Under the pieces are notes generated by a model, which did not search any database, had not been told where the DNA came from, and saw only the letters and a list, made by a program, of their open reading frames with translations. 64,000 nucleotides of DNA from Natronohydrobacter sp. (GTDB taxonomy: Bacteria; Pseudomonadota; Alphaproteobacteria; Rhodobacterales; Rhodobacteraceae): assembly GCA_030603695.1 (NCBI GenBank), contig JAUVXF010000005.1, positions 1-64,000 on the forward strand, given 5' to 3'. Positions 1-20,694 of this stretch are shown here, one piece after another. The stretch's first letter is position 1, and each line of letters opens with the position of its first letter. The translations under genes and the position numbers were made by a program.

Positions 1-5
1 AGCCG

Positions 6-3672: not shown

Positions 3673-3706
3673 TGTGGTGCTCCTTGTTGGGGGTATTTGG
3701 TCTGGT

Positions 3707-4519: not shown

Positions 4520-4551
4520 TGGGCTATTCCCTTTGCGACGTGATCGTGCCA

Positions 4552-4573
4552 TTAATATGCGTAAGCATAATAA
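4552..4573. promoter_or_regulatory. Palindromic operator candidate between hutG and hutF (HutC site?)
   Basis: In the 64-base divergent gap there is an inverted repeat with arms TATGC and GCATA around GTAA (4556-4569). The symmetry continues outward as TTA/TAA after one mismatched pair. GntR-family HutC repressors bind short palindromes at hut promoters, and hutC lies at the end of the divergent hutF unit, so this is the natural candidate site. The exact HutC consensus for this lineage is not something I can confirm from sequence. Confidence 0.5.
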
Positions 4574-4583
4574 CAGTGTCAAT

Positions 4584-5963
4584 ATGAAGATGAACAGCGA
4601 ACAGATGATTTGGGCACGGCAGGCCTTGCTGCCGAATGGATGGGCAAAGGATGTTCTGGTGCGCGTGGACGGGCTGGGCCGGATTGCCGATGTTACGGTG
4701 GGCGCAGCACGGCAAGGCCATGGTGTAGATACTCTGCTGCCCGCGCCGGTGAATTTGCACAGTCACGCCTTTCAGCGCGCCATGGCAGGCATGACCGAAG
4801 CGCGCGGCCCTGACCCGCGCGACACATTCTGGACATGGCGGCGCTTGATGTTCCGCTTCCTTGATCACCTTACACCCGATGACGCTCGGGCAATTGCCGC
4901 CATGGTGCAGATGGAAATGCTGGAGGCGGGTTTCGGCGCCTTGGCTGAGTTCCATTACCTGCACCACCGTTCTGACGGGCGGCCCTATGACAAAATCTCT
5001 GAAATGGGAGAGAGCATCTGTGCGGCTGCCGAAGAAACAGGGATTGGCCTGACGCTGCTGCCGGTTTTGTATCGCTATGGGGGCTGTGACAAACGGCCTT
5101 TGGCCCCAGGACAAGTGCGTTTCGGCAATGACCTAGACCAGTTTGGTCAGCTAGTGTCACAGCTGGAAACCTCTGTCGCGGGCCTGACGGCAGATAGCGT
5201 GCTAGGCATTGCGCCCCATTCTTTGCGCGCCGTGCAGCCCGCCGATCTGGCATTCTGTATCGAACTTGCCGGGCCGCGTGTGATTCATATGCATCTGGCC
5301 GAGCAACAGGAAGAGGTTGCCGAAGTCTTGGCCGCGCTTGGCGCGCGGCCTGTCGAATGGTTGCTGGACAGTGTTCCGGTGTCAGACCGCTGGTGCCTGA
5401 TTCACTGCACACAGATGGTTGCCTCGGAAACCGCGGCGCTGGCCCGGTCGGGCGCAGTTGCGGGGCTGTGCCCGATCACCGAGGCAAGCCTCGGTGACGG
5501 GATATTTGATGGCGCACGCTATCTGGCGACGAGTGGAAAATTCGGCATCGGGTCTGATTCCAATATCCGCATTTCACTGGTCGAGGAGTTGCGCGGATTG
5601 GAATATTCGCAGCGTTTGCGCGATCGTGGGCGTGCCGTTCTGGCAACTGCGGATAAATCCACCGGGCGGGTGCTATGGCAAGGCGCGGCCTTGGGCGGCG
5701 CGCAGGCTGCTGGCCGCGCGGCGGGTGCAATTGCCAAAGGCCTTTGGGCAGATATCGTGGCGCTGAACGGGGAAATGCCGGATCTTGAAGGGCGTGATGG
5801 GGATCTGATTCTTGATACAGTGGTGTTTTCGGGTGATAACCGCGCCATCGCTGATGTGTGGTCGGCGGGGCGGCATGTGGTGCGTGCCGGTCAACACATT
5901 CGCAGGGCTTCGATTGTCGCGCAATATCGAAGCGTCCTTGCCCGATTGAGAGATGTCGTGTGA
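4584..5963 (+). CDS. hutF: Formimidoylglutamate deiminase
   Basis: HutF deiminates N-formimino-L-glutamate to N-formylglutamate plus ammonia, feeding HutG. The amidohydrolase-superfamily protein (about 459 residues) shows APVNLHSHAFQRAMAGM near residue 54-70 (metal-binding HxH), EFHYLHH, the IAPHSLRAV segment, HLAEQQEEV, a LIHCTQMV strand, and GIGSDSNIRIS with the catalytic Asp. The N terminus IWARQALLPNGW matches the family start. The ATG codons at 4584, 4590 and 4605 are all possible and none has a strong ribosome site. The stop overlaps the GTG of hutC. Confidence 0.93.
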   Translation: MKMNSEQMIWARQALLPNGWAKDVLVRVDGLGRIADVTVGAARQGHGVDTLLPAPVNLHSHAFQRAMAGMTEARGPDPRDTFWTWRRLMFRFLDHLTPDDARAIAAMVQMEMLEAGFGALAEFHYLHHRSDGRPYDKISEMGESICAAAEETGIGLTLLPVLYRYGGCDKRPLAPGQVRFGNDLDQFGQLVSQLETSVAGLTADSVLGIAPHSLRAVQPADLAFCIELAGPRVIHMHLAEQQEEVAEVLAALGARPVEWLLDSVPVSDRWCLIHCTQMVASETAALARSGAVAGLCPITEASLGDGIFDGARYLATSGKFGIGSDSNIRISLVEELRGLEYSQRLRDRGRAVLATADKSTGRVLWQGAALGGAQAAGRAAGAIAKGLWADIVALNGEMPDLEGRDGDLILDTVVFSGDNRAIADVWSAGRHVVRAGQHIRRASIVAQYRSVLARLRDVV

Positions 5964-6664
5964 CCTTATCTTCTGCAAAGACTGACTGGAAAGCCATACG
6001 CCGTGATTTGCTGGGGCGCATCCAGTCGGGCGTATGGAAGCCGGGCGATCAGATCCCCCGCGAAGTGGAGCTGGCGGCGCATTATGATTGCACGCGCTCT
6101 ACTGTCGGGCGGGCCTTGCGCGATCTGGCAACGGCAGGGTTTCTTGACCGCAAGCGCAAAGGAGGAACCACAGTTTCCGCAAACCCTGTGCGCAAGGCCC
6201 CACTGGAAGTTCCCATCATTTCAGAGGCGATCCGCAAAGCGGGATATGAGGTTGGCTATCAGTTGCTGCGGGCCGGTGAGCGGCAGTTGGATCAAACGGC
6301 CGCCGCTGAATTGGGACTGCCAGACGCTGCAAGATTTTTGTCTATAGAGGCACTTTATCTGGCAGATGGCACCCCCTACCAGATAGAGCATCGGTGGTTG
6401 TTGCCCGCCACAGTTGTCGGCTTGACGCCGGAAATTCTGGAAGAAATGCCCGCAGATGAATGGCTGTTGCGCAATGTGCCGCTTACCCGCGCGCAAATCA
6501 TGATAGAAGCTGTGCATGCCCCCAAAGATGTCGCTGATGCCCTGCAAATCGCGCCAGACTCTCCCAGCCTGCTCATCAGGCGCACAAGCTGGCGCGCAAC
6601 GCAATTGATCGGGGTTTTGCACTTGTATCATGCGCCCGGACATCGGCTTGTGACCGGCATTTGA
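5960..6664 (+). CDS. hutC: Histidine utilisation repressor HutC (GntR family)
   Basis: A GntR/HutC-subfamily repressor of about 234 residues. The N-terminal winged helix-turn-helix covers roughly residues 8-75 (KPGDQIPREVELAAHYDCTR, then STVGRALRDLATAGFLDRK). The C-terminal UTRA ligand domain follows from about residue 90, ending in VLHLYHAPGHRL. In known hut systems urocanate releases the repressor. The start is a GTG at 5960 overlapping the hutF stop (GTGA), which implies translational coupling. An open frame further upstream lies inside hutF and is not used. hutH, hutU and hutI are not in the window on this side. Confidence 0.9.
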   Translation: MTLSSAKTDWKAIRRDLLGRIQSGVWKPGDQIPREVELAAHYDCTRSTVGRALRDLATAGFLDRKRKGGTTVSANPVRKAPLEVPIISEAIRKAGYEVGYQLLRAGERQLDQTAAAELGLPDAARFLSIEALYLADGTPYQIEHRWLLPATVVGLTPEILEEMPADEWLLRNVPLTRAQIMIEAVHAPKDVADALQIAPDSPSLLIRRTSWRATQLIGVLHLYHAPGHRLVTGI

Positions 6665-6683: not shown

Positions 6684-8258
6684 TCAACCGTTTTCCGGTG
6701 TGATGAAATCCGCCCCGCCCTGCACCCGATGCGCCGCGTGCCGTGATGCAAATTGTGCCAGCGCTTGAAGCCTTGGATTATCGGGGCATTCGTGGTGCAC
6801 ACGCTGCCAGAAGGCGAGATCTGCCAATCCGATACTTGCCTGCATGAAGGGATGTGCAAGCTCTGCCGGTGCCTTGCGTGTGGCGACGCATAGCTTTGTC
6901 CACTGCGACAGGCTGTCCATTAGCCACGAATTTTGCTGGCGTTGCGCGATTGTTGCAATGTAGCGCGTGAATGCCTCTGCCTGTGCCCCTGTCGCATGTG
7001 ACAGGCCGCGCGTTGCCAAGGTCAGCGCATGAATGCCATTCGCGCCTTCATAAATTGCGCAGATGCGGGCATCGCGATAGGCTTGTTCCACCCTGTATTC
7101 GTGCAAATAGCCATAACCGCCCAGAACCTGCATGGCGGTTTCCGTGACGCGCATTCCAGCCTCCGAACCCGCGACTTTGGCCATGGGTGTCAGGAAATCT
7201 GCCAATCTGTCCTGCCCGGTTTCCAGCGCCACCAAGGCCGTATGCGCCAGCGCGCGCGCGGCGAGTGTCTGGCTGTCCATCGCCTGTAACATGCGCCGCA
7301 CATCGGGGTGCTGCGCCAGCATTGCCGGGCTGCCATCTGCCGCGCGCCCCTGCGGGCGTTCCTGTGCATAGGCATGGGCGATGGCATGGGCCTTGGCCGC
7401 ATGGGCCACACCTTGCAAGGCCACATCCAGCCGCGCATGGTTCATCAAGAGGAACATCGCCGCAAGCCCCTGACCGGGTGCGCCGATCAATTCTGCCGCG
7501 CAATCGTCAAACACCATCTGGCACGTGGGAGAGCCATGAAGCCCCATCTTCTTTTCAATCCGCGCCACATGCACGCCGTTGCGCCGCCCATCGGGCAGCA
7601 GGGCAGGGCAGGCAAACAGGCTTAGCCCGCGCGTGCCATCCGGCCCGGTGCGCGCAAGCACCAGATGCAAGATATTCTCGCTTGCATCCTGATCGCCGCC
7701 AGAGATGAAAATCTTTTCGCCGGTAATCCGCCAGCCTTGCGGCCCTTCTTGCGCGCTGGTGCGGATGCGTGACAGATCAGACCCGGCACCTGCCTCTGTC
7801 AGGCACATTGTTGCCAGCCATGCGCCCGATGCAAGCGGGGGGATAAAACGGGCCTGTTGCTGAGGTGTGGCGCACTGTTGCAAAAGCCGGATTGCACCGG
7901 GCACAAGCCCCGCAACCATCTGCAACGCATGGCAGGCGCCGGAAAACGCTTCGGAAACAAGGGCCTGAACGGCAGGGCCAAGACCCTGGCCGCCAAATTC
8001 CTCTGGCGCGCTCAGGCCCTGCCAGCCAGCCTCTGCCAAGGCGCGGTAAGCGCTGGCAAAGCCTGCGGGCAGGTGCACCCGCCCATTCACCAGATGGCAC
8101 CCTTCCAGATCCCCCACAGGATCAAGCGGGGCGATATGGGCTTGGGAGAAGCTGGTGAAATGGCCCAAAACATCACGCGCCAGATCATTATCCCAGCCGG
8201 GAATAGTGTCTGCGCCTGCGAAATTCAGGCTCCAGAGGCTATCGTCCATTGCAGCCAT
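6684..8258 (-). CDS. Acyl-CoA dehydrogenase of phenylpropanoid cluster
   Basis: An FAD-dependent acyl-CoA dehydrogenase of about 524 residues that introduces the alpha-beta double bond into an acyl-CoA. It has the family core: GWQGLSAPEEFGGQGLG, the flavin/substrate motif MCLTEAGAGSDLS, ITGEKIFISGGDQD, and the late AIYEGANGIHALTL stretch with the presumed catalytic Glu. Its layout resembles DmdC-type long acyl-CoA dehydrogenases but is shorter at the N terminus than the 568-residue relative at 43.7 kb. Beside feruloyl-CoA synthase and an enoyl-CoA hydratase it would oxidise dihydrocinnamoyl-type CoA esters (inference). The start could be ATG 8258 or GTG 8264, the latter overlapping the amidohydrolase stop. 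It is convergent with hutC. Confidence 0.85.
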   Translation of the reverse strand: MAAMDDSLWSLNFAGADTIPGWDNDLARDVLGHFTSFSQAHIAPLDPVGDLEGCHLVNGRVHLPAGFASAYRALAEAGWQGLSAPEEFGGQGLGPAVQALVSEAFSGACHALQMVAGLVPGAIRLLQQCATPQQQARFIPPLASGAWLATMCLTEAGAGSDLSRIRTSAQEGPQGWRITGEKIFISGGDQDASENILHLVLARTGPDGTRGLSLFACPALLPDGRRNGVHVARIEKKMGLHGSPTCQMVFDDCAAELIGAPGQGLAAMFLLMNHARLDVALQGVAHAAKAHAIAHAYAQERPQGRAADGSPAMLAQHPDVRRMLQAMDSQTLAARALAHTALVALETGQDRLADFLTPMAKVAGSEAGMRVTETAMQVLGGYGYLHEYRVEQAYRDARICAIYEGANGIHALTLATRGLSHATGAQAEAFTRYIATIAQRQQNSWLMDSLSQWTKLCVATRKAPAELAHPFMQASIGLADLAFWQRVHHECPDNPRLQALAQFASRHAAHRVQGGADFITPENG

Positions 8259-8260
8259 AA

Positions 8261-9145
8261 TCACTTCAACCCCAGCAACCGGGCCGCGTTTTCTTTCAAT
8301 ATCAAGGGGCGCACTTCGTCGCGGATGGGCAGGTTTGCAAAATCTGCCAGCCAGCGATCCGGCGTGATTGCGGGCCAGTCTGACCCGAAAAGCATTTTCT
8401 TCTTCAGGATCGTATTGGCGTAATGCACAAAGATTTGCGGGAAGTATTTGGGCGACCATCCCGACATGTCGATATGCACATTGGGCTTGTGCTGCGCGAT
8501 GGCCAAGCCCTCTTCTGTCCATGGGAAAGAGGGATGGGCCAGCACGATCGGGGTATCGGGGAAGTCTACTGCAACATCATCAATATGAATGGGGTTCGAG
8601 AATTTCAGCCGCATCCCCATGCCACCGCGCACGCCCGAACCTACCCCGGTCTGGCCGGTATGAAACAACATGATCGCGCCTTCTTCGGCAATCGCCTCAT
8701 AGAGCGGATAGGCCATGCGGTCATTGGGGTAGAACCCCTGCATCGTTGGGTGAAACTTGAACCCGCGCACCCCGAAATCACGCACCAACCGCCGTGCCTC
8801 GCGCGCGCCGATCTTGCCCTTGGCCGGATCGATAGAGGCGAAGGGGATCAGGATATCGGAATTCTCGGCGCAAAGCCGCGCGATTTCCTCGTTGGAGTGG
8901 CGGTAAAATCCGGTTTCACGCTCTGCATCCACGCCAAAAATCACAGCGGCGATTTTGCGCTCGCGGTAATAGGCGGCGGTCTGCTCTACTGTGGGCAGCA
9001 TCCCATCCAACCCGGCGGGATTGCCGAAATACGCGGCCATGCCTTTCTGAAATTCCAGATACCCGTCATCGCGGTGGCAGTTGCAGGGTTCCTCGGCATG
9101 GGTGTGAAAGTCGATTGCGATGATGTCGTCAAGATTGATGGTCAT
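8261..9145 (-). CDS. Amidohydrolase (PF04909-like), predicted beta-keto acyl-CoA hydrolase
   Basis: A TIM-barrel metal hydrolase of about 294 residues. Metal and catalytic residues are visible: DFHTH (His14, His16), KFHPTMQG (His132), LFHTGQTG (His162), LAHPSFPW (His204) and LFGSDWP (Asp256). In the p-hydroxycinnamate and phenylpropanoid pathways of actinobacteria (Cou and Phd systems), an amidohydrolase-fold enzyme hydrolyses the aromatic beta-keto acyl-CoA in place of thiolase. The identical neighbourhood here suggests the same role; that is inference. AAGGG precedes the ATG at 9145. It sits 12 bases after the enoyl-CoA hydratase and overlaps the acyl-CoA dehydrogenase start, so the three genes form one operon. 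Confidence 0.85.
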   Translation of the reverse strand: MTINLDDIIAIDFHTHAEEPCNCHRDDGYLEFQKGMAAYFGNPAGLDGMLPTVEQTAAYYRERKIAAVIFGVDAERETGFYRHSNEEIARLCAENSDILIPFASIDPAKGKIGAREARRLVRDFGVRGFKFHPTMQGFYPNDRMAYPLYEAIAEEGAIMLFHTGQTGVGSGVRGGMGMRLKFSNPIHIDDVAVDFPDTPIVLAHPSFPWTEEGLAIAQHKPNVHIDMSGWSPKYFPQIFVHYANTILKKKMLFGSDWPAITPDRWLADFANLPIRDEVRPLILKENAARLLGLK

Positions 9146-9157
9146 GATCGGCCCTTG

Positions 9158-9949
9158 TTACGATGCGTCGGGCGCTTGCAGCCGTGCCGCGCGCTTTTCC
9201 AGAAAATCCTGAAGGCGCTGTTTTGCCTCTGGGGTTTCCGAGGTCAGGGCTGAGACGACTGATTCTGTAAAAAGCCCGTCTTCCACCGACATTTCAGCAA
9301 TACGCGGCAATGCATTCAGGATGGCATAATTCGACAAGGGCGCGTTGGATGTGGCGGCTTTTGCCAATTCCAATGCGCGGGCAAGGGCCTGGCCCTTGGG
9401 CACGACATAGGAAATCCCGCCCCATTGCTCCATCTGCGCGGGCGACACTGTGCGCCCCGTCAGCATCATATCGCCCATCCGCGCGGCCCCGATCAGCCGC
9501 GCAATCCGAACAGAGCCGCCGCCCCCCACAAAAATCCCGCGCTGCCCTTCTGGCAGGCCAAAAAACGCGCTTTCATCGGCCACGCGCACATGCGTAGCCG
9601 CCGCCAATTCAAACCCGCCGCCCACAACCGCGCCATGCAGTGCAGAGAAGAAGGGGATCTCGCCGCGCTCCATCTCTGAAAAAATCGCATGCCAGCGACG
9701 AGAGCCTTGAATCGCCTCAAACAAGGGTTTGTCCTTGTGTTCGGCCAGATCAAGCCCGGCGCAGAAATGATCCCCTTCGCCGTAGATAACGGCAGCGCGG
9801 GCTTCATTTTGGGCGCGTATGGCCGCGTTGCGCAGGGCTTCCACCACGCGGTCGGAAATTGCATTGCGCTTGGCTGGTCGGTTCAATCCGATAACAGCAA
9901 CCTTGTTTTCCAGCCGATAACTGACCGGAATTTCGCCAGACCCATCCAT
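9158..9949 (-). CDS. Enoyl-CoA hydratase (crotonase family), hydroxycinnamoyl-CoA type
   Basis: A crotonase-fold protein of about 263 residues. The oxyanion-hole stretches HFCAGLDL (about 62-68) and HGAVVGGGFELA (about 105-116) are present, and both catalytic glutamates of hydratases can be placed (Glu114 in GGFELA, Glu134 in LPEGQRG). It should therefore hydrate an enoyl-CoA to the 3-hydroxyacyl-CoA, although a hydratase/lyase reaction cannot be excluded. It is the first gene of the leftward operon with the amidohydrolase and acyl-CoA dehydrogenase. GGAGG lies nine bases before the ATG at 9949; an ATG at 9955 is only three bases from it and less likely. Confidence 0.87.
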   Translation of the reverse strand: MDGSGEIPVSYRLENKVAVIGLNRPAKRNAISDRVVEALRNAAIRAQNEARAAVIYGEGDHFCAGLDLAEHKDKPLFEAIQGSRRWHAIFSEMERGEIPFFSALHGAVVGGGFELAAATHVRVADESAFFGLPEGQRGIFVGGGGSVRIARLIGAARMGDMMLTGRTVSPAQMEQWGGISYVVPKGQALARALELAKAATSNAPLSNYAILNALPRIAEMSVEDGLFTESVVSALTSETPEAKQRLQDFLEKRAARLQAPDAS

Positions 9950-9983
9950 GGACATTTTCCTCCATCTTTGCCCTGCACTATAC

Positions 9984-9996
9984 ATAAATAATTTAT
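9984..9996. promoter_or_regulatory. AT-rich palindrome in divergent promoter
   Basis: ATAAAT-a-ATTTAT is a perfect inverted repeat with a one-base centre. It lies between the enoyl-CoA hydratase and the MarR gene, next to a second palindrome at 10009-10024. It could be an operator half or simply an AT-rich promoter element. Confidence 0.35.
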
Positions 9997-10008
9997 CTAG
10001 TAAACAGT

Positions 10009-10024
10009 ATTGTAGGAATACAAT
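10009..10024. promoter_or_regulatory. MarR-type operator candidate (ATTGTA-GGAA-TACAAT)
   Basis: A perfect 6-4-6 inverted repeat lies in the divergent promoter region between the enoyl-CoA hydratase operon and the MarR-SDR-feruloyl-CoA synthase operon. A spaced TTG...CAA dyad of this size is typical of MarR-family operators, and a MarR gene starts 46 bases downstream. The site would allow one regulator to control both divergent transcripts. Confidence 0.55.
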
Positions 10025-10069
10025 TTTATTGCTAACGTGTTTGCATCTGGGCTGTGTGGGGAATGGATC

Positions 10070-10543
10070 ATGGCAAAGGCAAATCTGCATCCGGCGCCGA
10101 TAGAGGAAGATTCGGACATAGAGCGCCTTTTGGGCTATAATCTGAAGCGCGCCTATATGATCGTGCGCGATGATTTCCGCAGGCAGGTAGAGCAATCAAT
10201 CCTCTCGCCGCGGGCCTTTTCCGTTCTGACGCTCATTGTCGAAACACAGGGCCTGACCCAAAGCGACGTGGCGCGTAAATTGGGCATAGAGCGATCTGGC
10301 CTTGTCGCAATCATTGATGATCTGGAAGGGAAGGGTCTTGCGCAGCGCAGGGCGGTTCCGGGCGACAGGCGTTCTCAGGCGCTGATGGCCACAGCGCAGG
10401 GATGCGCTTTGCATTCGGAAACAATGGCGCGGGTAGATGCGCATGAGAAGGCTTTGCTGGCCCCCTTCACCCCTGCCGAACGTGAACAGTTTCTTGCGCT
10501 GTTGCGAAAATTTCGCGCCGCGCATGAGGAGGAGGATACATGA
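10070..10543 (+). CDS. MarR family transcriptional regulator of phenylpropanoid genes
   Basis: A MarR-type winged-helix regulator of about 157 residues. The DNA-binding core runs through LTQSDVARKLGIERSGLVAI and DDLEGKGLAQRRAVPGDRRSQ (about residues 62-105), with helices on both sides for dimerisation. MarR proteins of hydroxycinnamate clusters (CouR/FerR/PhdR type) are de-repressed by the aromatic CoA thioester; the same is inferred here from the position between the divergent catabolic operons. The start at 10070 has GGGGAA upstream and is preferred over an in-frame codon at 10037. It overlaps the SDR gene by ATGA. Confidence 0.88.
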   Translation: MAKANLHPAPIEEDSDIERLLGYNLKRAYMIVRDDFRRQVEQSILSPRAFSVLTLIVETQGLTQSDVARKLGIERSGLVAIIDDLEGKGLAQRRAVPGDRRSQALMATAQGCALHSETMARVDAHEKALLAPFTPAEREQFLALLRKFRAAHEEEDT

Positions 10544-11304
10544 CAGATTTCACAGGCGGTGTGGCTGTTGTCACGGGCGGGGCTTCGGGGCTGGGGGCGG
10601 CCACGGCCCGCGCGCTCGCCGATGCGGGGATGCGCGTTGCGATATTTGATCTGGCCGAACGCGAAGGCGCGGCCTTGGCTGAAAGCCTGAATGGGCTGTT
10701 TTGCAAGGTGGATGTATCTGATCCCGAAAGCGTGGCGGCGGGATTTGCCGCCGCCGGCGCGCTGGGCATATTGCGCGCCGTTGTCAATTGTGCGGGCATT
10801 GGGCCAGTTGCGAAAACGGTATCGCGGGGCGCGGCGCATGATCCTGCGGTGTTTATGAAGGCCATCGCTGTCAATCTGGGCGGGACATTCAATTGCGCCG
10901 CGCAAGGGGCTGCGATCATGGCGGCGCAAGACCCGGTAGGGCCGGACAATGCGCGCGGTGTGATTGTCAATACGGCCTCTGTCGCGGCATTTGATGGGCA
11001 GATCGGGCAGGTGGCCTATGCGGCCTCCAAAGGGGGGGTGGTCGGGATGACGCTGCCAATGGCGCGCGATCTGGCAGATAAGGGCATTCGCGTTTGCACT
11101 ATCGCGCCGGGGCTGTTCCTGACCCCGCTGTTGCACAGCCTGCCGCAAGAGGCGCAAGACTCGCTTGGAAAGCAAGTGCCATTCCCCCCTCGGCTGGGCG
11201 ACCCGTCAGAATATGCGGCACTTGTGCTGCATATCCTGACAAACCCCATGCTGAATGGCGAAGTCATACGCCTTGATGGCGCTATTCGGATGGCCCCACG
11301 GTGA
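10540..11304 (+). CDS. SDR family 3-hydroxyacyl-CoA dehydrogenase
   Basis: A short-chain dehydrogenase/reductase of 254 residues. The nucleotide-binding motif TGGASGLG (12-19), NCAGIG (83-88) and the catalytic triad Ser147, Tyr160, Lys164 (YAASKGG) are all present. It is similar in layout to the HSD17B10 / 3-hydroxy-2-methylbutyryl-CoA dehydrogenase group, which oxidises 3-hydroxyacyl-CoA with NAD+. Between a MarR regulator and feruloyl-CoA synthase it would oxidise the aromatic 3-hydroxypropionyl-CoA made by the hydratase, giving the beta-keto ester for the amidohydrolase (inference). It is coupled to both neighbours by overlapping start and stop codons. Confidence 0.88.
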   Translation: MTDFTGGVAVVTGGASGLGAATARALADAGMRVAIFDLAEREGAALAESLNGLFCKVDVSDPESVAAGFAAAGALGILRAVVNCAGIGPVAKTVSRGAAHDPAVFMKAIAVNLGGTFNCAAQGAAIMAAQDPVGPDNARGVIVNTASVAAFDGQIGQVAYAASKGGVVGMTLPMARDLADKGIRVCTIAPGLFLTPLLHSLPQEAQDSLGKQVPFPPRLGDPSEYAALVLHILTNPMLNGEVIRLDGAIRMAPR

Positions 11305-13088
11305 TGCCATTGCAAGATACGCGCTTTTGGACACCGCGCTTTGAAATTGCGCATCGTGCTGATGGCAGCATTCTGATGCGCCAAAGTGATCCTTTGCCAG
11401 AGCATTTGCCCCTTGTGGCCGATTATCTGGATCACTGGGCGGATAAGACCCCCGATGCCACATGGATCGCGCGGCGCGATGCCGGCGGCGATTGGCGGCG
11501 TATCAGCTACGGGCAGGCACGCGATATGGCGCAGCGCTTGGGGGCTGGATTGCTGGCGCGCGGGCTTGGGCCGGATCGGCCTCTTCTGATCTTGTCCGAG
11601 AACAGCCTTGAACACGCGCTTTTGGCGATGGGGTGCATTTATGTTGGCATTCCCTTCGCGGCAGTATCGCCAGCCTATTCGCTGGTTTCCAAGGATCATG
11701 GCAAATTGCGCGATATCGCGGCACTGCTGCGCCCCGGCGCTGTGTTTGCAGATAATGCCGTGGCTTTCGCGCCAGCGTTGCAGGCAATTGCCGCACCCGG
11801 CCAAGCCGTAATCAGTCTGGGCGCGGGCGGCGATGATTTTGAGGCCCTGCTTGGCACATCGCCAGAGGCCGCTTTGGCTGCGCGTGCGCGGCTTACCCCC
11901 GATGGGGTGGTGAAATATCTTTTCACCTCCGGCTCTACCGGCAGCCCCAAGGCGGTGATCAATACCAATCGCATGATCTGCGCGATGGGTGCCATGATCA
12001 GCGATTGTTACCGTTTCTTGCGGCATGAACCGCCTGTGGTGCTGGACTGGGCACCTTGGAACCACACGGCGGCGGGCAACAAGGTGTTCATGCTCGTGCT
12101 GGCACATGGCGGCAGTTATTATATTGATGATGGCCGCCCCGTGCCGGGCAAATTTGCCGAAACCCTGCGCAACCTGCGCGAAATTTCCTGCACTTGGTAT
12201 TTCAACGTGCCTTTGGGCTATGACATGCTGATAGATGCGCTGGAGCAGGATCGCCCGCTGGCAGAGACGTTTTTCTCTCGGCTTGGGATGCTTTTTTATG
12301 CAGGGGCTGGAATGGCCCAGCACACATGGGACAGGCTGTCGGCCCTTGGCCGCGCCGTGACGGGGCGCGAGGTGTTGCTTGCAACCGGGCTTGGGGCAAC
12401 AGAAACGGCCCCTTTCGCGCTGGCCTGCACGGAAATCCAAAGCCGCGCTGGTAATATTGGTGTGCCCGCCCGCGGTCTGGAATTGAAACTGGTTCCCACG
12501 GGCGACAAGCTGGAAGCACGCTTGCGCGGCCCAACCATCATGCCCGGATATCTGCGCGATCCGAAAAAAACCGCTGAAGCATTTGATGCAGAGGGTTTTT
12601 ATTGCCTTGGAGATGCGCTGCGCCCGGCTGACCCAGAAAATCTGGCACGCGGCTTTTTCTTTGATGGCCGTGTTGCCGAAAATTTCAAACTGGCAAGCGG
12701 AACCTGGGTTGCCGTTGGAGCAATACGCGCGGGCCTGGTGGATGCGATGGGCGGGTTGATCCGCGATGCGGTGATCGTCGGAGAAAACGAGGCTGAGTTG
12801 GGGGCATTGCTGCTGTTGTCCGACCAAGCAAAAGCGATGGCGGCAGACGCCCTTCACGGGGCACTGGAAGCAGCACTTGTGCAGGCAGCGCGCGCGGCGA
12901 CAGGCTCTGCCAGCCGCGTGATGCGCGCCCTTGTTCTGAAAGAGGCGCCCAGCTTTGACCGTGGCGAAGTCACGGAAAAAGGCAGCCTGAACCAGCGCGC
13001 AATGCGGGCAAATCACGCGGCCCTGATCGCCACGCTTTACACCGAAAACCCGACAGAACCTGTTCTGTTTGCGGGGCGAAAAATCTGA
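11304..13088 (+). CDS. fcs: Feruloyl-CoA synthase (AMP-forming)
   Basis: An ANL-superfamily acyl-CoA synthetase of about 594 residues that activates an aromatic acid with ATP and CoA. The P-loop-like motif LFTSGSTGSPKAV (about 206-218) is followed by LDWAPWNHTAAGNKVF, YAGAGMAQHTWDRL, ATGLGATETAPFA and the DALRPADPENLARGFFFDGR hinge region, a set characteristic of feruloyl-CoA synthases rather than fatty acid ligases. It is the committing enzyme of the cluster. ATG 11304 follows the SDR stop (TGATG); a GTG at 11301 is an alternative. No clear intrinsic terminator follows before the second MarR gene. Confidence 0.92.
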   Translation: MPLQDTRFWTPRFEIAHRADGSILMRQSDPLPEHLPLVADYLDHWADKTPDATWIARRDAGGDWRRISYGQARDMAQRLGAGLLARGLGPDRPLLILSENSLEHALLAMGCIYVGIPFAAVSPAYSLVSKDHGKLRDIAALLRPGAVFADNAVAFAPALQAIAAPGQAVISLGAGGDDFEALLGTSPEAALAARARLTPDGVVKYLFTSGSTGSPKAVINTNRMICAMGAMISDCYRFLRHEPPVVLDWAPWNHTAAGNKVFMLVLAHGGSYYIDDGRPVPGKFAETLRNLREISCTWYFNVPLGYDMLIDALEQDRPLAETFFSRLGMLFYAGAGMAQHTWDRLSALGRAVTGREVLLATGLGATETAPFALACTEIQSRAGNIGVPARGLELKLVPTGDKLEARLRGPTIMPGYLRDPKKTAEAFDAEGFYCLGDALRPADPENLARGFFFDGRVAENFKLASGTWVAVGAIRAGLVDAMGGLIRDAVIVGENEAELGALLLLSDQAKAMAADALHGALEAALVQAARAATGSASRVMRALVLKEAPSFDRGEVTEKGSLNQRAMRANHAALIATLYTENPTEPVLFAGRKI

Positions 13089-13167
13089 AGTCCGTTTGAT
13101 AAGAAATTGTTTGATTTGAAACGTTTTATAGCTTACTAATTTCTAAACGAAACTAAAAGGCACGATT

Positions 13168-13689
13168 ATGGCTCAGGATGTAGGCGAGCAGCTGCTCAAG
13201 GATATGCCCGATACTCATGCCGGGGGTAGCGGCGGGATAGGCCTGTCATTTGGGGAGTTGCAGCAGAATACTGGGTTTCTTCTGCGTATGGCTTGGCTGC
13301 AAATATCTGAAAAGCTGGAAGAAAACAGTCAGTCTGTAATGCTTAGCGCGCCTGAGTACACGATCTTGCACATGATCGCGCAAACGCCCGGCGTGCGTCA
13401 GGGGCATCTGGCGCAGGCTTTGTATATCAAGCCCGCAGCCATGACCCGTATCATCCGAAATTTTGAAGACCGCGCCTTGGTTACGCGCGAAATCCCCGAT
13501 GGGGATCGTCGCACGGTGCGCCTGACAATCCGTCAGGCTGGGCGCGCCGCCCTTGATCAGGCCCGTTCTTTGTTCGGGGGGCAAGCGGAGCACGAGCGCG
13601 GCGCATTGAATGCCGCAGAGCAACAAAAACTGAACTATCTGCTGCGCAAATTTTGCGGTCTGGATACGAGCAATACCCAAGCCCCCTAA
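13168..13689 (+). CDS. MarR family regulator upstream of TRAP transporter
   Basis: The second MarR-type regulator in the island (173 residues). The winged helix lies around residues 70-115, with PGVRQGHLAQALYIKPAAM, TRIIRNFEDRALVTREIPDGD and RRTVRLTIR. It differs clearly from the 10070 regulator in sequence, so it is not a recent duplicate. AAAAGG lies upstream of the ATG. Only 54 bases separate it from dctP, suggesting that it controls or is co-transcribed with the TRAP genes. The 79-base gap before it is AT-rich and holds an AAACGTTT palindrome (13119-13126). Confidence 0.87.
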   Translation: MAQDVGEQLLKDMPDTHAGGSGGIGLSFGELQQNTGFLLRMAWLQISEKLEENSQSVMLSAPEYTILHMIAQTPGVRQGHLAQALYIKPAAMTRIIRNFEDRALVTREIPDGDRRTVRLTIRQAGRAALDQARSLFGGQAEHERGALNAAEQQKLNYLLRKFCGLDTSNTQAP

Positions 13690-13743
13690 CCAGCCTTGCG
13701 CAGACGGCAGAATATCACGGTCAAAAACTGGGAGGAAAAGACC

Positions 13744-14832
13744 ATGACATTATCAAGAACACTGATTTTGGGCGCGGCTTTGGCCATCAGCACCGCAACA
13801 GTCGCCACAGCGCAAAATTTGCGTGGCGCGGGCGGGGCTTCGCCCAACCATCCGTCAACATATATGTACGAACGCTTTGCCAGCTATCTGGAAGAAGAAA
13901 GCGGCGGCAGCATGAGCCTGACATTGGTTGGTTCCGAAGTTGTGTCGCTGTTGCAGGTTCCCGATGCGCTGCAATCGGAATTGATCAGCGTTGGCAATGT
14001 GTTGCCACTGTTTTTTGCAGCAGATTTTCAGCGTACCAATGTGGCTGGTGACATGGCGCTGATGGGGCGCGATTCGCATGCGATGGCGCTGGCTATGACC
14101 GAATTTGTGGTCAATTGTGAACCCTGCCAGCAAGAGTTCAGCAATAAAGGCATGGTGTTTCTGGGGGCGGGCGCCTCTGATGTTTATGTGCTGATCACCA
14201 CAAGCCCCGTGCGCACGGCGGCGGATTTGCAGGGCCTGCGCCTGCGTTCTGGTGGTGCGCCCTTCGCGCGCTGGGCCGAGAATTTCGGCGCCACCCCTGT
14301 CAGCATCGCTGTGGGAGAGCAGTTTGAAGGCATGAACCAGGGCACGATTGACGGGTCTATGGCGTCTATTGTGGATATGCTGTCATTCCGCCTTGTGGAT
14401 GTCGCAAAATATGTGACCGAGGTTCCGCTTGGCACATATCATGTGACCTCCAATTTCAGCTTCGGCAAACCCGCTTGGGCCAGCCTGAGCGAAGAGCAGC
14501 GCGCAACAGTTGTGCGGGCCGCCAACCGTGCCAACCCAACCCTGACAGACCGTTGGGGCTTTCAATTGCCCGAAGCCGCGCGCAATGCTGTGGGCGGGTC
14601 AAGCATTGAAGTGATTACGCCCGATGCGGATTTGCTGGAAGCCTCCAGCAGCTTTGCGATGGAAGATGCGGCGGCGCGTATCGCAGCAGACCCGCTGGCA
14701 GCCGATTTTGCCGCATTGGTAGAGAAGTGGTCGGGTATTGTCGCCGAACTGGGCAATGATCCCGACGTGCTGTCAGCGCGGGCATTTGAAGAAATCTGGG
14801 CAAATGTCGATCTCTCCACCTATGGTCTCTGA
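13744..14832 (+). CDS. dctP: TRAP transporter solute-binding protein DctP
   Basis: A periplasmic DctP-family binding protein of about 362 residues with a signal peptide (residues 1-23, ending ATAQ). Family features include the segment VYVLITTSPVRTAADLQGLR leading to the LRLRSGG motif, and VGEQFEGMNQGTIDGS with the usual substrate-contact region. It delivers an organic acid to DctQM. TRAP systems of this type import aromatic acids such as coumarate in Rhodopseudomonas (TarPQM), and the adjacency to feruloyl-CoA synthase suggests an aromatic substrate (inference). GGGAGG lies nine bases before the ATG. Confidence 0.9.
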   Translation: MTLSRTLILGAALAISTATVATAQNLRGAGGASPNHPSTYMYERFASYLEEESGGSMSLTLVGSEVVSLLQVPDALQSELISVGNVLPLFFAADFQRTNVAGDMALMGRDSHAMALAMTEFVVNCEPCQQEFSNKGMVFLGAGASDVYVLITTSPVRTAADLQGLRLRSGGAPFARWAENFGATPVSIAVGEQFEGMNQGTIDGSMASIVDMLSFRLVDVAKYVTEVPLGTYHVTSNFSFGKPAWASLSEEQRATVVRAANRANPTLTDRWGFQLPEAARNAVGGSSIEVITPDADLLEASSSFAMEDAAARIAADPLAADFAALVEKWSGIVAELGNDPDVLSARAFEEIWANVDLSTYGL

Positions 14833-14848
14833 CCCCTTGTCCTAAGGC

Positions 14849-14875
14849 AACCTCTGGCCGTTCAGGCCAGAGGTT
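14849..14875 (+). terminator. Hairpin between dctP and dctQ (attenuator/processing stem)
   Basis: A perfect 11-bp stem (AACCTCTGGCC / GGCCAGAGGTT) with a five-base loop lies just after the dctP stop, followed by only a short T-rich stretch. Such intercistronic stems often leave a binding-protein mRNA more abundant than the permease mRNA, which is the likely role here. Confidence 0.65.
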
Positions 14876-14907
14876 TTGCAAGGAAATCCGTTTTCCGAGG
14901 AAACCCC

Positions 14908-15438
14908 ATGTCTTTGCTTGTCCGGTTTTCCGCTGGCCTGTGCCGCGTCTTGTCTTTTCTTGGTGCGGTCGCGGTGGTGCTGATGATGCTGCATGTCACC
15001 CTTGATGTGATCCTTTTGAATGTGTTTCGCATTTCCATGAACACCACGCCAGAAATCGTCGCGCACTATTACATGGTTGCTGTGGCCTTTATGCCTTTGG
15101 GCTGGCTGACATTGCGCAATCAGATGATCTCGGTCGAGTTGCTGGATTTCGTTTTGCCAAAATGGCTGCGCAACCTGTCAGATTTCGTGATCGCGCTGAT
15201 CGGGGCGGCGGTTTACGGGCTGCTCAGCTATGCGACATGGCTCAAGGCGCTGCGTGAACTGCGGTCGCGCTCTTTTGTGGATCTGGTCACTGTCCAGATG
15301 CCTGTTTGGCAGTCGCATTTTATCGTTCCTGCCGGGTTTGGTTTGGCAGCACTGGCCTGCGCGCTGCTTGCCATTGTCTATCTGTCGCAAACTGCCCGTG
15401 CAGAGTTGCAGCGCCTGACCACAGGTGCAGACGAATGA
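14908..15438 (+). CDS. dctQ: TRAP transporter small permease DctQ
   Basis: The four-helix small membrane subunit (176 residues). Helices are visible at about residues 12-40, 53-68, 91-110 and 133-155. The conserved ISVELLDFVLPKWLRN stretch follows the second helix. It pairs with DctM in the inner membrane. GAGGAA is placed well before the ATG at 14908, and the stop overlaps the start of dctM (ATGA). Confidence 0.9.
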   Translation: MSLLVRFSAGLCRVLSFLGAVAVVLMMLHVTLDVILLNVFRISMNTTPEIVAHYYMVAVAFMPLGWLTLRNQMISVELLDFVLPKWLRNLSDFVIALIGAAVYGLLSYATWLKALRELRSRSFVDLVTVQMPVWQSHFIVPAGFGLAALACALLAIVYLSQTARAELQRLTTGADE

Positions 15439-16745
15439 GTGTTGAAATCGGCCTTTGGGGTGTTGCGATACTTATGGCGCTTTTGGCGCTGCGCCTGCCT
15501 GTGGCACTAGCTATGATCATCGTCTCTTTTGGCGGCATATGGGCGATGGTGGGCTGGAACCCTGCAATGGGTATTCTGGCCAATACGCCCTATTCCTTTG
15601 CCGCCCGCTGGACAATGAGCGCGGTGCCAATGTTTCTGTTCATGGGGTTTGTCGCGTATCACACTGGCCTGACGGGGGGCCTGTTCGAGGCCGCGAAAGC
15701 TTTGCTTGCGCGGCTGCCGGGTGGTCTGGCGATTTCGTCCATCTTTGCCTGTTCGGGCTTTGCGGCTGTTTCTGGCTCTTCACTGGCAAATTCGGCGGCA
15801 ATGGGCCGGATCGCAATTCCTGAAATGGTGAAGGCAGGGTATAAACCTTCGGTCGCTGCGGGCTGCATTGCGGCGGGCGGCACAATTGGCGCACTTATCC
15901 CCCCATCCATTTTGATGATCATCTATGGCGTCATCGCAGAGACATCCATTGTTCAGGTGTTTTTGGGGGGGATCAGCATCGGTTTGCTGACGGCCCTGTC
16001 TTACTGCATCGTCATTTTCTGCATTGCCTGGTTTCGGCCCGATATCATTCCGCGCGCCCAAGCACATGACAGGCCGAATATCTGGGTTGCCCTGCGGCAG
16101 GTGGGCCCCATCATCTTGCTGATTGTCATCATCTTTGGCGGGCTGTTCTCCGGCATGTTCACAGCCACGCAAGCTGGCGCTGTCGGGGCCTTTGGCACAG
16201 TTGCGATTGCTGCGGCGATGGGGCGGCTAAGCCGGGATGCGCTAAGCCGCTCGCTGAGTGAAACGGTCATTACCACCGGTTCGTTGCTGATCATCGGGAT
16301 TGGCGCAACCATGTTCACCCGGTTTTTGGGCGTTTCGGGCGTGTCCAGCCTGATTTCTTCTTTTGTCAGTGATACTGGCCTTAGCATAATGGTTGTGCTG
16401 TTCATCATCATTTGCATTTATCTGGTGCTGGGCACATTCATGGAACCCTTTGGCGCAATGCTTGTAACCTTGCCCATCTTCCTGCCATTGATAAGTGCAG
16501 AAGGGCTAAGCCTTGTGTGGTTTGGGGTATTGGTGGTCAAGCTGTTGGAGGTGGGCATGATAACCCCGCCTGTGGGGATGAATGTCTTTGTCATCAAGAA
16601 TGTGGCCAGCCGCTATGTGACAGTGACAGAAGTGTTCCGGGGGGTTTTGCCCTTCATTCTGGCCGATCTTGTTGTTGTGGGCTTGATTGTTGCCATCCCC
16701 GCTGTGGTTTTGTTCTTGCCAGAGATGGTTATGCAGGCGCGATGA
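15435..16745 (+). CDS. dctM: TRAP transporter large permease DctM
   Basis: The 12-helix large subunit (436 residues) that forms the transport channel. Family motifs seen include NPAMGILANTPYSFAARW, AVSGSSLANSAAMGRIAIPEM, GGTIGALIPPSILMIIYG and VGMITPPVGMNVFVIKN near the C terminus. The true start is the ATG at 15435 overlapping the dctQ stop; an in-frame extension to 15306 lies inside dctQ and is not used. Together with dctP and dctQ it makes a complete importer, here assigned to the aromatic acid island by position. Confidence 0.92.
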   Translation: MSVEIGLWGVAILMALLALRLPVALAMIIVSFGGIWAMVGWNPAMGILANTPYSFAARWTMSAVPMFLFMGFVAYHTGLTGGLFEAAKALLARLPGGLAISSIFACSGFAAVSGSSLANSAAMGRIAIPEMVKAGYKPSVAAGCIAAGGTIGALIPPSILMIIYGVIAETSIVQVFLGGISIGLLTALSYCIVIFCIAWFRPDIIPRAQAHDRPNIWVALRQVGPIILLIVIIFGGLFSGMFTATQAGAVGAFGTVAIAAAMGRLSRDALSRSLSETVITTGSLLIIGIGATMFTRFLGVSGVSSLISSFVSDTGLSIMVVLFIIICIYLVLGTFMEPFGAMLVTLPIFLPLISAEGLSLVWFGVLVVKLLEVGMITPPVGMNVFVIKNVASRYVTVTEVFRGVLPFILADLVVVGLIVAIPAVVLFLPEMVMQAR

Positions 16746-16898: not shown

Positions 16899-17627
16899 TC
16901 AAGAGCGCGCTTTCAGCACTGCAATCGCCTCTGCCAGATCCAGCTTGCCATCATAAAGCGCCCGGCCCGAAATCGCGCCGTCCAAAGCCGCGCCACAATC
17001 GCGCAGGGCAATCAGGTCTTGCACATGCGACACGCCGCCAGAGGCAATGACCGGAATATGCACGGCCCGCGCCAGATCGGCTGTGGCGGCCACGTTCGGC
17101 CCCTGCATGGCGCCATCACGGTTGATATCCGTGTAGATAATTGCTGCCACGCCAGCATCTTCAAACTGGCGCGCCAGTGCCGTCACCTCTACATCTGTTT
17201 CTTCGGCCCAGCCTTTGGTGGCCACGCGTCCGTTGCGCGCGTCAATCCCAACGGCCACTTGCCCCGGAAATGCCGCCGCCGCCTTGCGCACAAGATCGGG
17301 GTCTTCCACCGCAACCGTGCCCAGAATGACGCGCGACAAGCCGCGCTTTAGCCAAGCTTCGATCGTGGCCATATCGCGGATACCGCCCCCCAGCTGGCAG
17401 GGAATATGCACGCCATCCAATATCTCTTCAACAGCGGCCGCGTTGACAGGGGTTCCGGCAAAGGCGCCGTTCAAATCCACGAGATGCAACCATTCTGCCC
17501 CTTGTGCCACAAAGGCACGCGCCTGCGCGGCGGGATTGTCATTGAAGACGGTCGCCTGTGTCATTTCGCCTTTCAGCAGGCGCACACACTGGCCATCTTT
17601 GAGGTCAATCGCAGGATAAAGGATCAT
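16899..17627 (-). CDS. hisA: Phosphoribosyl-formimino-AICAR ribotide isomerase HisA
   Basis: HisA catalyses the Amadori rearrangement of ProFAR to PRFAR, the fourth step of histidine synthesis. The 242-residue beta/alpha barrel carries [16 protein letters not shown] with the catalytic Asp8, [18 protein letters not shown], and the second-half [16 protein letters not shown] with the second catalytic Asp, then [15 protein letters not shown] precedes the ATG at 17627. No other his gene is adjacent, so it is a detached hisA here. A hairpin with a T-run separates it from the PAS gene upstream, so it probably has its own promoter. Confidence 0.97.
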
Positions 17628-17684
17628 GGCAGCTTTCCATTCAAGACTATGGGTTGCTGCCTCTTACGCGCTCTGCCCGCGCAG

Positions 17685-17711
17685 GAAAACCGCCAATCAT
17701 GGCTTGGCGGA
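17685..17711 (-). terminator. Intrinsic terminator of PAS_5 gene
   Basis: On the minus strand a seven-base-pair stem CCGCCAA / TTGGCGG with a seven-base loop (17690-17710) is followed directly by TTTTC. It lies 18 bases after the PAS gene stop and before hisA, which indicates separate transcription units. Confidence 0.7.
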
Positions 17712-17728
17712 AAAAGACTGGTGGCAAA

Positions 17729-18322
17729 TCAGGATTTGCCGCCAGTGATAACGCGCAATGCAGGGCGTGCAGCTGCTTCGGTGGGGGTGGGGGCGGGCGT
17801 GTTGTCTGGCACTGGCTTTGCCAGCGTAAAGCGGCGCGGGCTGCGACCCAGATTACCCCGACGTTCCAGCACACCCATAACGCGGGTAATGCGCCCGGCA
17901 TCATCTGTCAGTGGCAAGAGCGCCAATGTGGCTGTCATGTCCGGCAAGCCAAAGCCCGTTTCCCCCTGCAAGGACAATGTCACACGCGCCCCCAGAATGA
18001 CTTGCTCCAGCGCCTCATTCAATTCTTGCCGGGCTGTGCCTTTGAACAATGCGGTCAGGGGCATGCCGCGCATATCCATGCCCAACACATCTTCAATGCG
18101 CTGCCCGCAAATGCGGAACCGGGCAACGCGGGGGCTGACAATCTCTGCCAGAAACACATCTGGAAGGGCATGGGCCAGCAGCTTTGCATCAATCTCGCTG
18201 CGGCGCGGCGGAAGCGCACCTGTTTTCAGACTGGCCCAATGGGCTGTCACATCGGCGACCACGGTTCCGGTAGACAGGATACTATGCGCTGCGGAATTTG
18301 GTTTTGTCATATTCTCGGTCAT
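17729..18322 (-). CDS. PAS_5 domain protein (single-domain PAS)
   Basis: A cytoplasmic protein of 197 residues with one PAS-like domain (about residues 25-155) and a Pro/Ala-rich tail. The pattern HWASLKTGALPPRRSEIDAK, LLAHALPDVFLAEIV and RFRICGQRIEDVLG matches the PAS_5 family (PF07310-type). No output domain is present. Some single-domain PAS proteins of alphaproteobacteria act in cell-cycle and motility control (for example MopJ in Caulobacter). The CtrA-type box upstream makes that role plausible but unproven. The start could be 18322 or 18310. It diverges from yicC and ends at a good terminator. Confidence 0.78.
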   Translation of the reverse strand: MTENMTKPNSAAHSILSTGTVVADVTAHWASLKTGALPPRRSEIDAKLLAHALPDVFLAEIVSPRVARFRICGQRIEDVLGMDMRGMPLTALFKGTARQELNEALEQVILGARVTLSLQGETGFGLPDMTATLALLPLTDDAGRITRVMGVLERRGNLGRSPRRFTLAKPVPDNTPAPTPTEAAARPALRVITGGKS

Positions 18323-18412
18323 CTTCTTGTTTCCCGTATCATCTAACGCAGGTGCGGTTCAAAATTGATCTGGCAACCCGGCCCGTGTTCTGTGGTAACA
18401 CTTAATCAAGCT

Positions 18413-18432
18413 GCCTTAATAAGGCCTTAATA
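18413..18432. promoter_or_regulatory. CtrA-type box (TTAA-N7-TTAA) with GCCTTAATA direct repeat
   Basis: TTAA at 18416-18419 and TTAA at 18427-18430 are exactly seven bases apart, which is the CtrA consensus spacing. The same stretch reads as two copies of GCCTTAATA, 11 bases apart (18413 and 18424), and a further TTAA lies at 18402. It is in the divergent gap between the PAS_5 gene and yicC. Confidence 0.55.
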
Positions 18433-18519
18433 CGCGCATTTTGGCTCGATTTCTGCCACAATCTGTGAGTTTGGTTAAGATGCGGGCTTGAGGCCCCAAT
18501 TCTGGCGGGAAAGACAGAT

Positions 18520-19422: not shown

Positions 19423-19426
19423 CCCC

Positions 19427-20071: not shown

Positions 20072-20102
20072 TGATACGCGCCGATTGCAGGGGATTGCGA
20101 CT

Positions 20103-20690: not shown

Positions 20691-20694
20691 CGCG

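Follow-up and report, generated by a model that had tools for sequence, protein, structure and literature searches.

The ten genes at positions 6684-16745 of the window (the whole 64,000-nucleotide stretch analysed here, from contig JAUVXF010000005.1 of Natronohydrobacter sp., Rhodobacteraceae) form a cluster that, judged from its gene content, very probably imports hydroxycinnamates and removes two side-chain carbons from them by a coenzyme A (CoA)-dependent β-oxidative route. Annotation covered the cluster and ten open frames in its near flanks (1-6664 and 16899-21873). The ten genes are intact, lie on two divergent strands, and are all open at the positions listed below. The minus strand carries, in this order, enoyl-CoA hydratase (ECH), amidohydrolase and acyl-CoA dehydrogenase (ACD), and the plus strand MarR1, a short-chain dehydrogenase/reductase (SDR), a feruloyl-CoA synthase-like ligase (FCS), MarR2, DctP, DctQ and DctM. 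A preliminary description of this DNA had proposed five enzymes, two MarR regulators and a DctPQM importer of the tripartite ATP-independent periplasmic (TRAP) type in divergent operons. The intact frames and family matches confirmed this gene list and layout, and hydroxycinnamate side-chain removal coupled to TRAP import is the best-supported function.

6684-8258, minus strand: ACD, 524 amino acids; Pfam Acyl-CoA_dh N/M/1, 97 bits
8261-9145, minus strand: amidohydrolase, Atu1421/CouO-like last step, predicted β-ketoacyl-CoA hydrolase; Amidohydro_2, 171 bits
9158-9961, minus strand: ECH; ECH_1, 137 bits; NF006013, 370 bits (cut-off 232)
9977-10004, minus strand: putative sigma-70-like promoter of the ECH operon, TTTACT - 16 - TATAGT, a consensus match only
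9998-10013, plus strand: operator-like motif 1, TAGTAAACAGTATTGT, overlapping the ECH -35 box
10070-10543, plus strand: MarR1, CouR-like putative repressor; MarR Pfam match, best PDB match 6c28
10540-11304, plus strand: SDR, 3-hydroxyacyl-CoA dehydrogenase family; adh_short, 141 bits
11301-13088, plus strand: FCS, feruloyl-CoA synthase-like CoA ligase; AMP-binding, 151 bits; NF009232, 666 bits
13107-13124, plus strand: operator-like motif 2, TTGTTT-N6-AAACGT, 2 mismatches to TTGTTT-N6-AAACAA
13168-13689, plus strand: MarR2, kin of the MarR beside the amidohydrolase in other alphaproteobacteria (HcaR position); MarR Pfam match
13744-14832, plus strand: DctP, TRAP substrate-binding protein; DctP Pfam, 89 bits
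14908-15438, plus strand: DctQ, TRAP small permease; DctQ Pfam, 59 bits
15435-16745 (start approximate), plus strand: DctM, TRAP large permease; DctM Pfam, 274 bits

The open frame of ACD reaches 8522, and the gene start was placed near 8258 because the longer frame falls inside the amidohydrolase gene; the true start of ECH may be a few codons inside the annotated frame. Residues that we take to be catalytic or ligand residues were checked in alignments of ECH, SDR, ACD, amidohydrolase, FCS and DctP, from which rows under length or score limits had been dropped (ECH 3, SDR 10, ACD 1, FCS 3 and DctP 10). FCS matched NF009232, a model for CoA ligases of the feruloyl-CoA synthase family, over residues 3-589, its Lys, Glu and Asp were kept in 72 of 72 rows, and it is 37-51% identical to the proteins of plasmid relatives annotated as feruloyl-CoA synthase. 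The best PDB match of the SDR was a 3-hydroxyacyl-CoA dehydrogenase (4.1e-87), and the Ser-Tyr-Lys set was present in 57/57 rows. The amidohydrolase retained the HxH/H/H/D metal-ligand pattern in all 108 rows, and shares 77% identity with a protein of Rhizobium sp. Q54 that is annotated as 4-hydroxyphenyl-β-ketoacyl-CoA hydrolase. The Glu of the YEG motif was kept in 53/53 ACD rows. ACD would desaturate 3-arylpropionyl-CoA and thereby admit dihydro forms, and with this gene intact the use of saturated phenylpropionates, suggested in the preliminary description, is plausible.

In the proposed pathway, DctPQM would take up p-coumarate, ferulate or similar acids, FCS would form the CoA thioester, ECH would hydrate the double bond, and the SDR would convert the 3-hydroxy into the 3-keto form. 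The amidohydrolase would then cleave the 3-ketoacyl-CoA, giving acetyl-CoA and an aromatic acid, either 4-hydroxybenzoate or vanillate. The dihydro forms would enter the route after conversion by ACD into the unsaturated CoA ester, and PobA, a LigM-like demethylase and protocatechuate dioxygenase would carry the ring via protocatechuate.

The absence of ring-cleavage genes, pointed out earlier, holds for the cluster but not for the genome (2.95 Mb, 99.97% complete), which has pobA, pcaH and a demethylase relative on other contigs. Both pcaH (protocatechuate 3,4-dioxygenase; 333 bits, cut-off 296) and pobA (4-hydroxybenzoate hydroxylase; 651 bits, cut-off 539) are found on contig C40, outside the window; a weaker dioxygenase match (57 bits) beside pcaH is probably pcaG. 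Demethylases of the VanA type (PF00848, PF19112) were not found in the genome. We had excluded ferulate as a substrate for want of a demethylase, and this was overturned by a folate-dependent demethylase relative on contig C19, which is 78% identical to the GCV_T protein of an Agrobacterium salinitolerans locus (L082, see below) and is adjoined by a GntR/FCD gene. It is the sole match to the L082 demethylase in the genome, and none lies within the window. In that region (L156, G000:C19:66000-83000, 6977-11221) the GntR/FCD gene, the demethylase relative, an alpha/beta hydrolase and a LigB-family dioxygenase stand together. With pobA, pcaH and the demethylase relative in one genome, 4-hydroxybenzoate, and probably vanillate as well, is predicted to reach protocatechuate and ring cleavage. 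A vanillin dehydrogenase, likewise noted earlier as absent near the cluster, is unnecessary, since the aromatic acid is the reported product of the amidohydrolase step (CouO; available part of PMC4737184).

The closest described pathway, one that the preliminary description had not mentioned, is SpG8-1b of Agrobacterium fabrum (Atu1415-1422). According to the available part of PMC7797058, it comprises FCS (Atu1416), ECH (1417), phenylhydroxypropionyl-CoA dehydrogenase (1415), a last-step enzyme called β-keto-thiolase (1421), a folate-dependent vanillate demethylase (1420), a GntR/FCD regulator (1419) and the MarR repressor HcaR (1422). The promoters lie in the gap separating 1416 from 1417, and the pathway is induced by p-coumarate and ferulate. 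Locus L082 is arranged as MarR - amidohydrolase - GCV_T demethylase - GntR/FCD - ECH on one side and FCS - SDR - ACD on the other, a layout close to that published for SpG8-1b in the text available; L082 includes an ACD. The window proteins are 80% (amidohydrolase), 69% (ECH), 54% (SDR) and 49% (FCS) identical to those of L082. As far as that source goes, the window cluster shares with SpG8-1b the SDR step, FCS, ECH, the last-step enzyme, a MarR-type putative repressor and divergent promoters, and the folate-dependent demethylase and GntR/FCD regulator are present in the same genome. It differs in that this demethylase pair is on another contig, that FCS and ECH are not divergent neighbours, and that a second MarR gene and DctPQM are added.

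The preliminary description had regarded the gene set as remarkable for an alphaproteobacterium and for the joined importer, a view that does not stand, since the set recurs among alphaproteobacterial relatives. On a Rhizobium sp. Q54 plasmid, ACD-SDR-FCS and ECH-MarR-amidohydrolase-DctPQM form one block in which the ligase is annotated as feruloyl-CoA synthase, and related clusters of Rhizobiales and Rhodobacterales (L004, L068 and others) likewise unite the enzymes, a MarR and DctPQM in a single block. The Q54 cluster differs from that of the window in having a single MarR gene, between ECH and the amidohydrolase, in the placement of ACD-SDR-FCS on the opposite strand, and in the identity of FCS (about 50%) and ACD (about 41%). 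A published description of this cluster with its importer was not found in the open-access literature searched.

Three actinobacterial systems are alike by description, in the parts of the reports available. The cou genes of Rhodococcus jostii RHA1 share the CoA thioester, the β-oxidative steps, an amidohydrolase (CouO) that yields the aromatic acid and a MarR protein (CouR); a couT promoter is mentioned, and a TRAP importer does not appear in the passages available (PMC4737184). PipUVWX of Rhodococcus ruber is a four-enzyme, β-oxidation-like route to the aromatic acid that is active on ferulate, but belongs to the piperine cluster of an actinomycete (PMC12753220). The phd genes of Corynebacterium glutamicum combine CoA-dependent phenylpropanoid degradation with a transporter gene of their own, although the transporter, PhdT, is called a permease (PMC10576375).

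Within the genus, 13 of 37 genomes, the source genome included, carry the amidohydrolase at 82% identity or more, and all 12 loci of the relatives were retrieved and compared. All ten genes are present in the same order in 8 of the 12; among these, the DctP match is split into two overlapping pieces in L164 (3796-4880) and is only partial in L166 (3865-4602), which may reflect frameshifts or assembly errors. One relative (L168) has a different layout. When the ten genes were compared with those of four of the 12 relatives, the ratio of nonsynonymous to synonymous differences per site (pN/pS) was 0.06-0.32 in the 40 comparisons, with synonymous sites near saturation (pS 0.50-0.72). These ratios, together with the same gene order in 8/12 relatives, indicate that the ten-gene set is not a product of chance.

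We then turned to the family, where 295 genomes were sampled with the amidohydrolase as query (E threshold 0.001). A match was obtained in 111 of them. Near-full-length matches of at least 67% identity numbered 86, in 81 genomes, one 35-residue fragment at 74% having been excluded from the 86. Five genomes have two near-full-length copies. Judged by identity and neighbours, one copy is of the window type and the other of a second type (about 70-75%) in G008, G034, G097 and G153, and both are of the second type in G039; the two types may have differing substrates. The two-copy loci are L044, L054, L056 and L060 with their partners L043, L053, L055 and L059, and also L057 and L058. The window amidohydrolase is 72-90% identical to its counterparts in the retrieved clusters outside the genus' second type.

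When named genomes were scanned for relatives of the amidohydrolase of Rhizobium sp. Q54, the best 80 of 579 were retained, and the window proteins were compared with their loci by tblastn (coverage 40%, E 1e-6). Matches at these 80 loci numbered 65 for ECH, 54 for FCS, 49 for SDR and 44 for ACD, 53 for MarR2 and 10 for MarR1, and 32, 26 and 26 for DctM, DctP and DctQ; the sample has loci cut at contig ends, many close relatives, a bias of the query towards Rhizobiales and possibly a few unrelated low-identity matches. The gene set is common across the alphaproteobacteria, spanning Rhodobacterales and Rhizobiales, and the cluster in the window is a further case of the widespread SpG8-1b/Cou type of pathway combined with a TRAP importer. 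A Paracoccus aestuarii plasmid (L002, 1498-15457) carries the same cluster with two TRAP systems, a P450, a 2Fe-2S protein and an FAD oxidoreductase, the ligase being annotated there as two open frames (6861-7898 and 7941-8702). On a Pseudomonas putida plasmid (L065, 277-8867), a 59% identical amidohydrolase follows acetoacetate-CoA ligase-like and biotin carboxylase genes and has no annotated ligase/hydratase set next to it; these genes may belong to an acetophenone-carboxylase-type pathway that shares the same last step.

Several observations weigh against a hydroxycinnamate pathway of the SpG8-1b kind. The 666 bits of FCS are below the NF009232 cut-off of 777, and the amidohydrolase had no match among the NCBIfam models at 0.001. 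At the loci of three of the 12 genus relatives (L163, L165 and L167), neither SDR nor ACD was matched. It is the gene arrangement of L082, and not A. fabrum sequences, that connects the cluster with SpG8-1b, A. fabrum not being named among the 80 loci, and the MetF gene (Atu1418) was not recognised in L082, where the open frames tried had no Pfam match. Finally, with a profile made of cluster DctP proteins only (A3), 4p56 and 4ng7 alone passed 1e-20, which places DctP far from the solved binders of aromatic acids.

The alternative that survives best has the same chemistry, with another 3-arylpropenoate or 3-arylpropionate (cinnamate, methoxycinnamate or phenylpropionate) as main substrate and hydroxycinnamates as secondary ones. 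We consider it rather unlikely; as it overlaps with the preferred reading in chemistry, the probabilities of the two do not sum to one. It draws on the ACD matches at 44 of the 80 loci, on the two amidohydrolase types found together in 4 of 295 genomes, which hint at different substrates, and on the P450, ferredoxin-type and reductase genes that adjoin the P. aestuarii cluster; PipUVWX, moreover, takes piperic acid and even fatty acids (available part of PMC12753220). On the other hand, the presence of pobA and the LigM-like gene agrees with 4-hydroxybenzoate and vanillate as the acids formed, and p-coumarate and ferulate are the inducers of the pathway that has the SpG8-1b layout (PMC7797058, in the part available).

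A second alternative concerns the importer, since DctPQM could merely adjoin the enzymes and import an unrelated substrate. We infer a hydroxycinnamate ligand for DctPQM from gene position alone. DctP is not near any solved hydroxycinnamate binder: among solved structures, the sequence search (1.7e-20) and the fold search (25% identity) both put 4p56 of Bordetella closest, which we take to be a mandelate binder, and the match to 7nqg, titled TarP_Rhp, is not close (3.2e-8). The AlphaFold2 model of DctP (mean predicted local distance difference test, pLDDT, 90) was built on an alignment (A1) that included four unrelated TRAP proteins. An aromatic ligand had been read from a profile search, and this reading was weakened, several aromatic binders being listed only with those four proteins in the profile (A1). 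The fold search returned titles such as TarP with ferulate and aromatic-acid-specific marine proteins, and also binders of lactate, sialic acid and isethionate; it does not settle the ligand, because TRAP proteins share the fold. Arg168 was kept in 33/33 rows, but was identified by motif and is general to the DctP family, so that it carries little weight. TarP of Rhodopseudomonas palustris binds coumarate, caffeate and ferulate with a Kd of 8-15 nM, and TarPQM is likewise a TRAP importer beside coumarate genes, but its locus is described as non-β-oxidative (PMC3610893, available part). A further point for an unrelated substrate is that 54 of the 80 loci have no DctP match. Nevertheless, homologous DctP proteins (26 proteins, 46-65% identical) stand beside the same enzymes in several genera, a DctP match is present at 11 of the 12 genus loci, and DctP gave a pN/pS of 0.13-0.20 in the genus comparisons; we regard an unrelated import substrate as distinctly unlikely.

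It is very improbable that the route is non-β-oxidative, with the crotonase acting as a hydratase/lyase that gives vanillin or 4-hydroxybenzaldehyde and with the SDR and amidohydrolase otherwise employed, even though that route begins with a CoA ligase followed by an enoyl-CoA hydratase/lyase (available part of PMC10458429). The SDR is of the 3-hydroxyacyl-CoA dehydrogenase type, and FCS, ECH and SDR matches recur at 54, 65 and 49 of the 80 loci, which were selected by the amidohydrolase. ECH has both crotonase glutamates in the window and in 88/88 rows, which is the hydratase pattern; the hydratase/lyase is not known to carry the first of the two. Scarcely credible is a dimethylsulfoniopropionate-type pathway (DmdB-DmdC-DmdD-like) for 3-methylthiopropionate: such genes are common in the roseobacter family, of which the source organism appears to be a member, and the best PDB matches include 6ijc (presumably DmdC) for ACD and 4izb/4izc (presumably DmdD) for ECH, but that route is not known to require an SDR or an amidohydrolase, the model closest to the ligase is of the feruloyl-CoA synthase type, and ECH scored 247 bits with 3hin against 215 with 4izb. 

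Regulation of the cluster was analysed from the gaps between its genes, in the window and 11 genus loci (L168 was left aside for its differing layout). The best PDB match of MarR1 was 6c28, named CouR and presumably that of R. palustris (6.5e-19), and MarR1 scored 78 bits with NF053777 (cut-off 200). Motif 1 was invariant in 12 of 12 ECH|MarR1 gaps. Its perfect copy is the only one in the genome; a genome scan with up to 3 mismatches gave 6 sites against 17 in the reversed control, and therefore only the perfect copy is meaningful. CouR boxes also overlap the -35 (PMC4737184, available part). The pattern ATTG-N7/8-CAAT was discarded as a CouR-like box, 4 copies being found in the window, one of them at 10009-10024, against 5.2 expected. 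A promoter scan around the ECH start gave 5 sites, with a shuffle mean of 4.2.

Motif 2 came from loci with a MarR2 and no MarR1 match, where TTGTTT-N6-AAACAA was present with at most 1 mismatch in 32 of 50 ligase|hydratase gaps, and in 44 of the 50 the palindrome match was equalled by at most 5/100 shuffles. Both figures overstate the motif, because the pattern was composed after viewing the same gaps, and these include close relatives and a few duplicate copies from the same organism. In the genus, the ECH|MarR1 gap is without this palindrome (4-5 mismatches in 12/12), and it is found with 0-3 mismatches in the FCS-MarR2 gap, ahead of MarR2-DctPQM. No shuffle was as good there in 6 of 12 loci, and 6-14/100 were in the other six, the window included (2 mismatches, 6/100); in L161 the best match differs from the aligned site. 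A genome scan with a longer motif 2 pattern gave 1 site against 0 in the control. Motif 1 was equalled by at most 5/100 shuffles in 13 of the same 50 gaps, each time with 3 or more mismatches. Of four gaps from loci with a MarR1 match, those of L118 and L124 hold a weak motif-1-like site (4 mismatches, 2-3/100 shuffles) and the other two hold neither motif.

By analogy with CouR, the divergent enzyme promoters are most likely repressed by MarR1, which would be released by hydroxycinnamoyl-CoA, and MarR2 most likely controls its own gene and the importer. The presence of two distinct operator-like motifs suggests that the enzymes and the importer are each under a MarR protein of their own, and the simplest reading of the predicted operators is that control of the enzymes passed to MarR1 and that of the importer stayed with MarR2. 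Phylogeny bears on the origin of the parts. The genus FCS proteins group with those of L055 (MarR1-SDR-FCS) and L147 (MarR1-FCS) in 15 rows with full support (SH-like approximate likelihood-ratio test 100, by a quick method). The ACDs of most retrieved clusters are 37-45% identical to that of the window, and its nearest kin (51-55%) belong to the second cluster type in the family; with four such ACDs it forms a 5-row group with 100/100 support, in a tree with long branches, about which the program warns for such joins. We tentatively propose, as a possibility short of even chances, that in the genus the regulon was split, the enzymes passing to MarR1 and a new operator, AGTAAACAGTATTGT, and the ancestral MarR2 with its TTGTTT-N6-AAACAA palindrome going to the importer, and that the cluster is a mosaic whose ACD came from the second cluster type.

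The ten flanking open frames appear unrelated to the cluster, and two of them have no Pfam match. The left flank (1-6664) holds a TAXI-type TRAP system, with an NMT1_3 binding protein (2701-3906) and a DctM-type permease (6-2252), an Amidohydro_1 enzyme with a HutF-like N-terminus (4374-5963) and a GntR/UTRA regulator (5858-6664). The right flank carries a HisA-like gene, an uncharacterised gene (17406-18368), YicC and guanylate kinase within 16899-20071, and an AI-2E-type transporter was also among the frames examined (within 16899-21873). The HisA-like gene was matched at 85-88% in all 7 genus genomes picked for lacking the amidohydrolase, and YicC was in the same short locus in 3 of these 7; therefore the cluster seems to adjoin a stable chromosomal block.

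How roseobacters degrade coumaric and ferulic acid has been called an open question (available part of PMC12442348). The presence of the cluster across Rhodobacterales and Rhizobiales, with an importer and a downstream route in one genome, offers clear genes for deletion tests. If the regulon is indeed split, uptake and breakdown would follow two signals, for example the free acid and the CoA ester, and such control would make import possible before commitment to catabolism. The remaining interest of the cluster is in this two-repressor layout, which may provide a tractable case of separately controlled uptake and catabolism, and in its value as a test case for hydroxycinnamate use in roseobacter-like bacteria.

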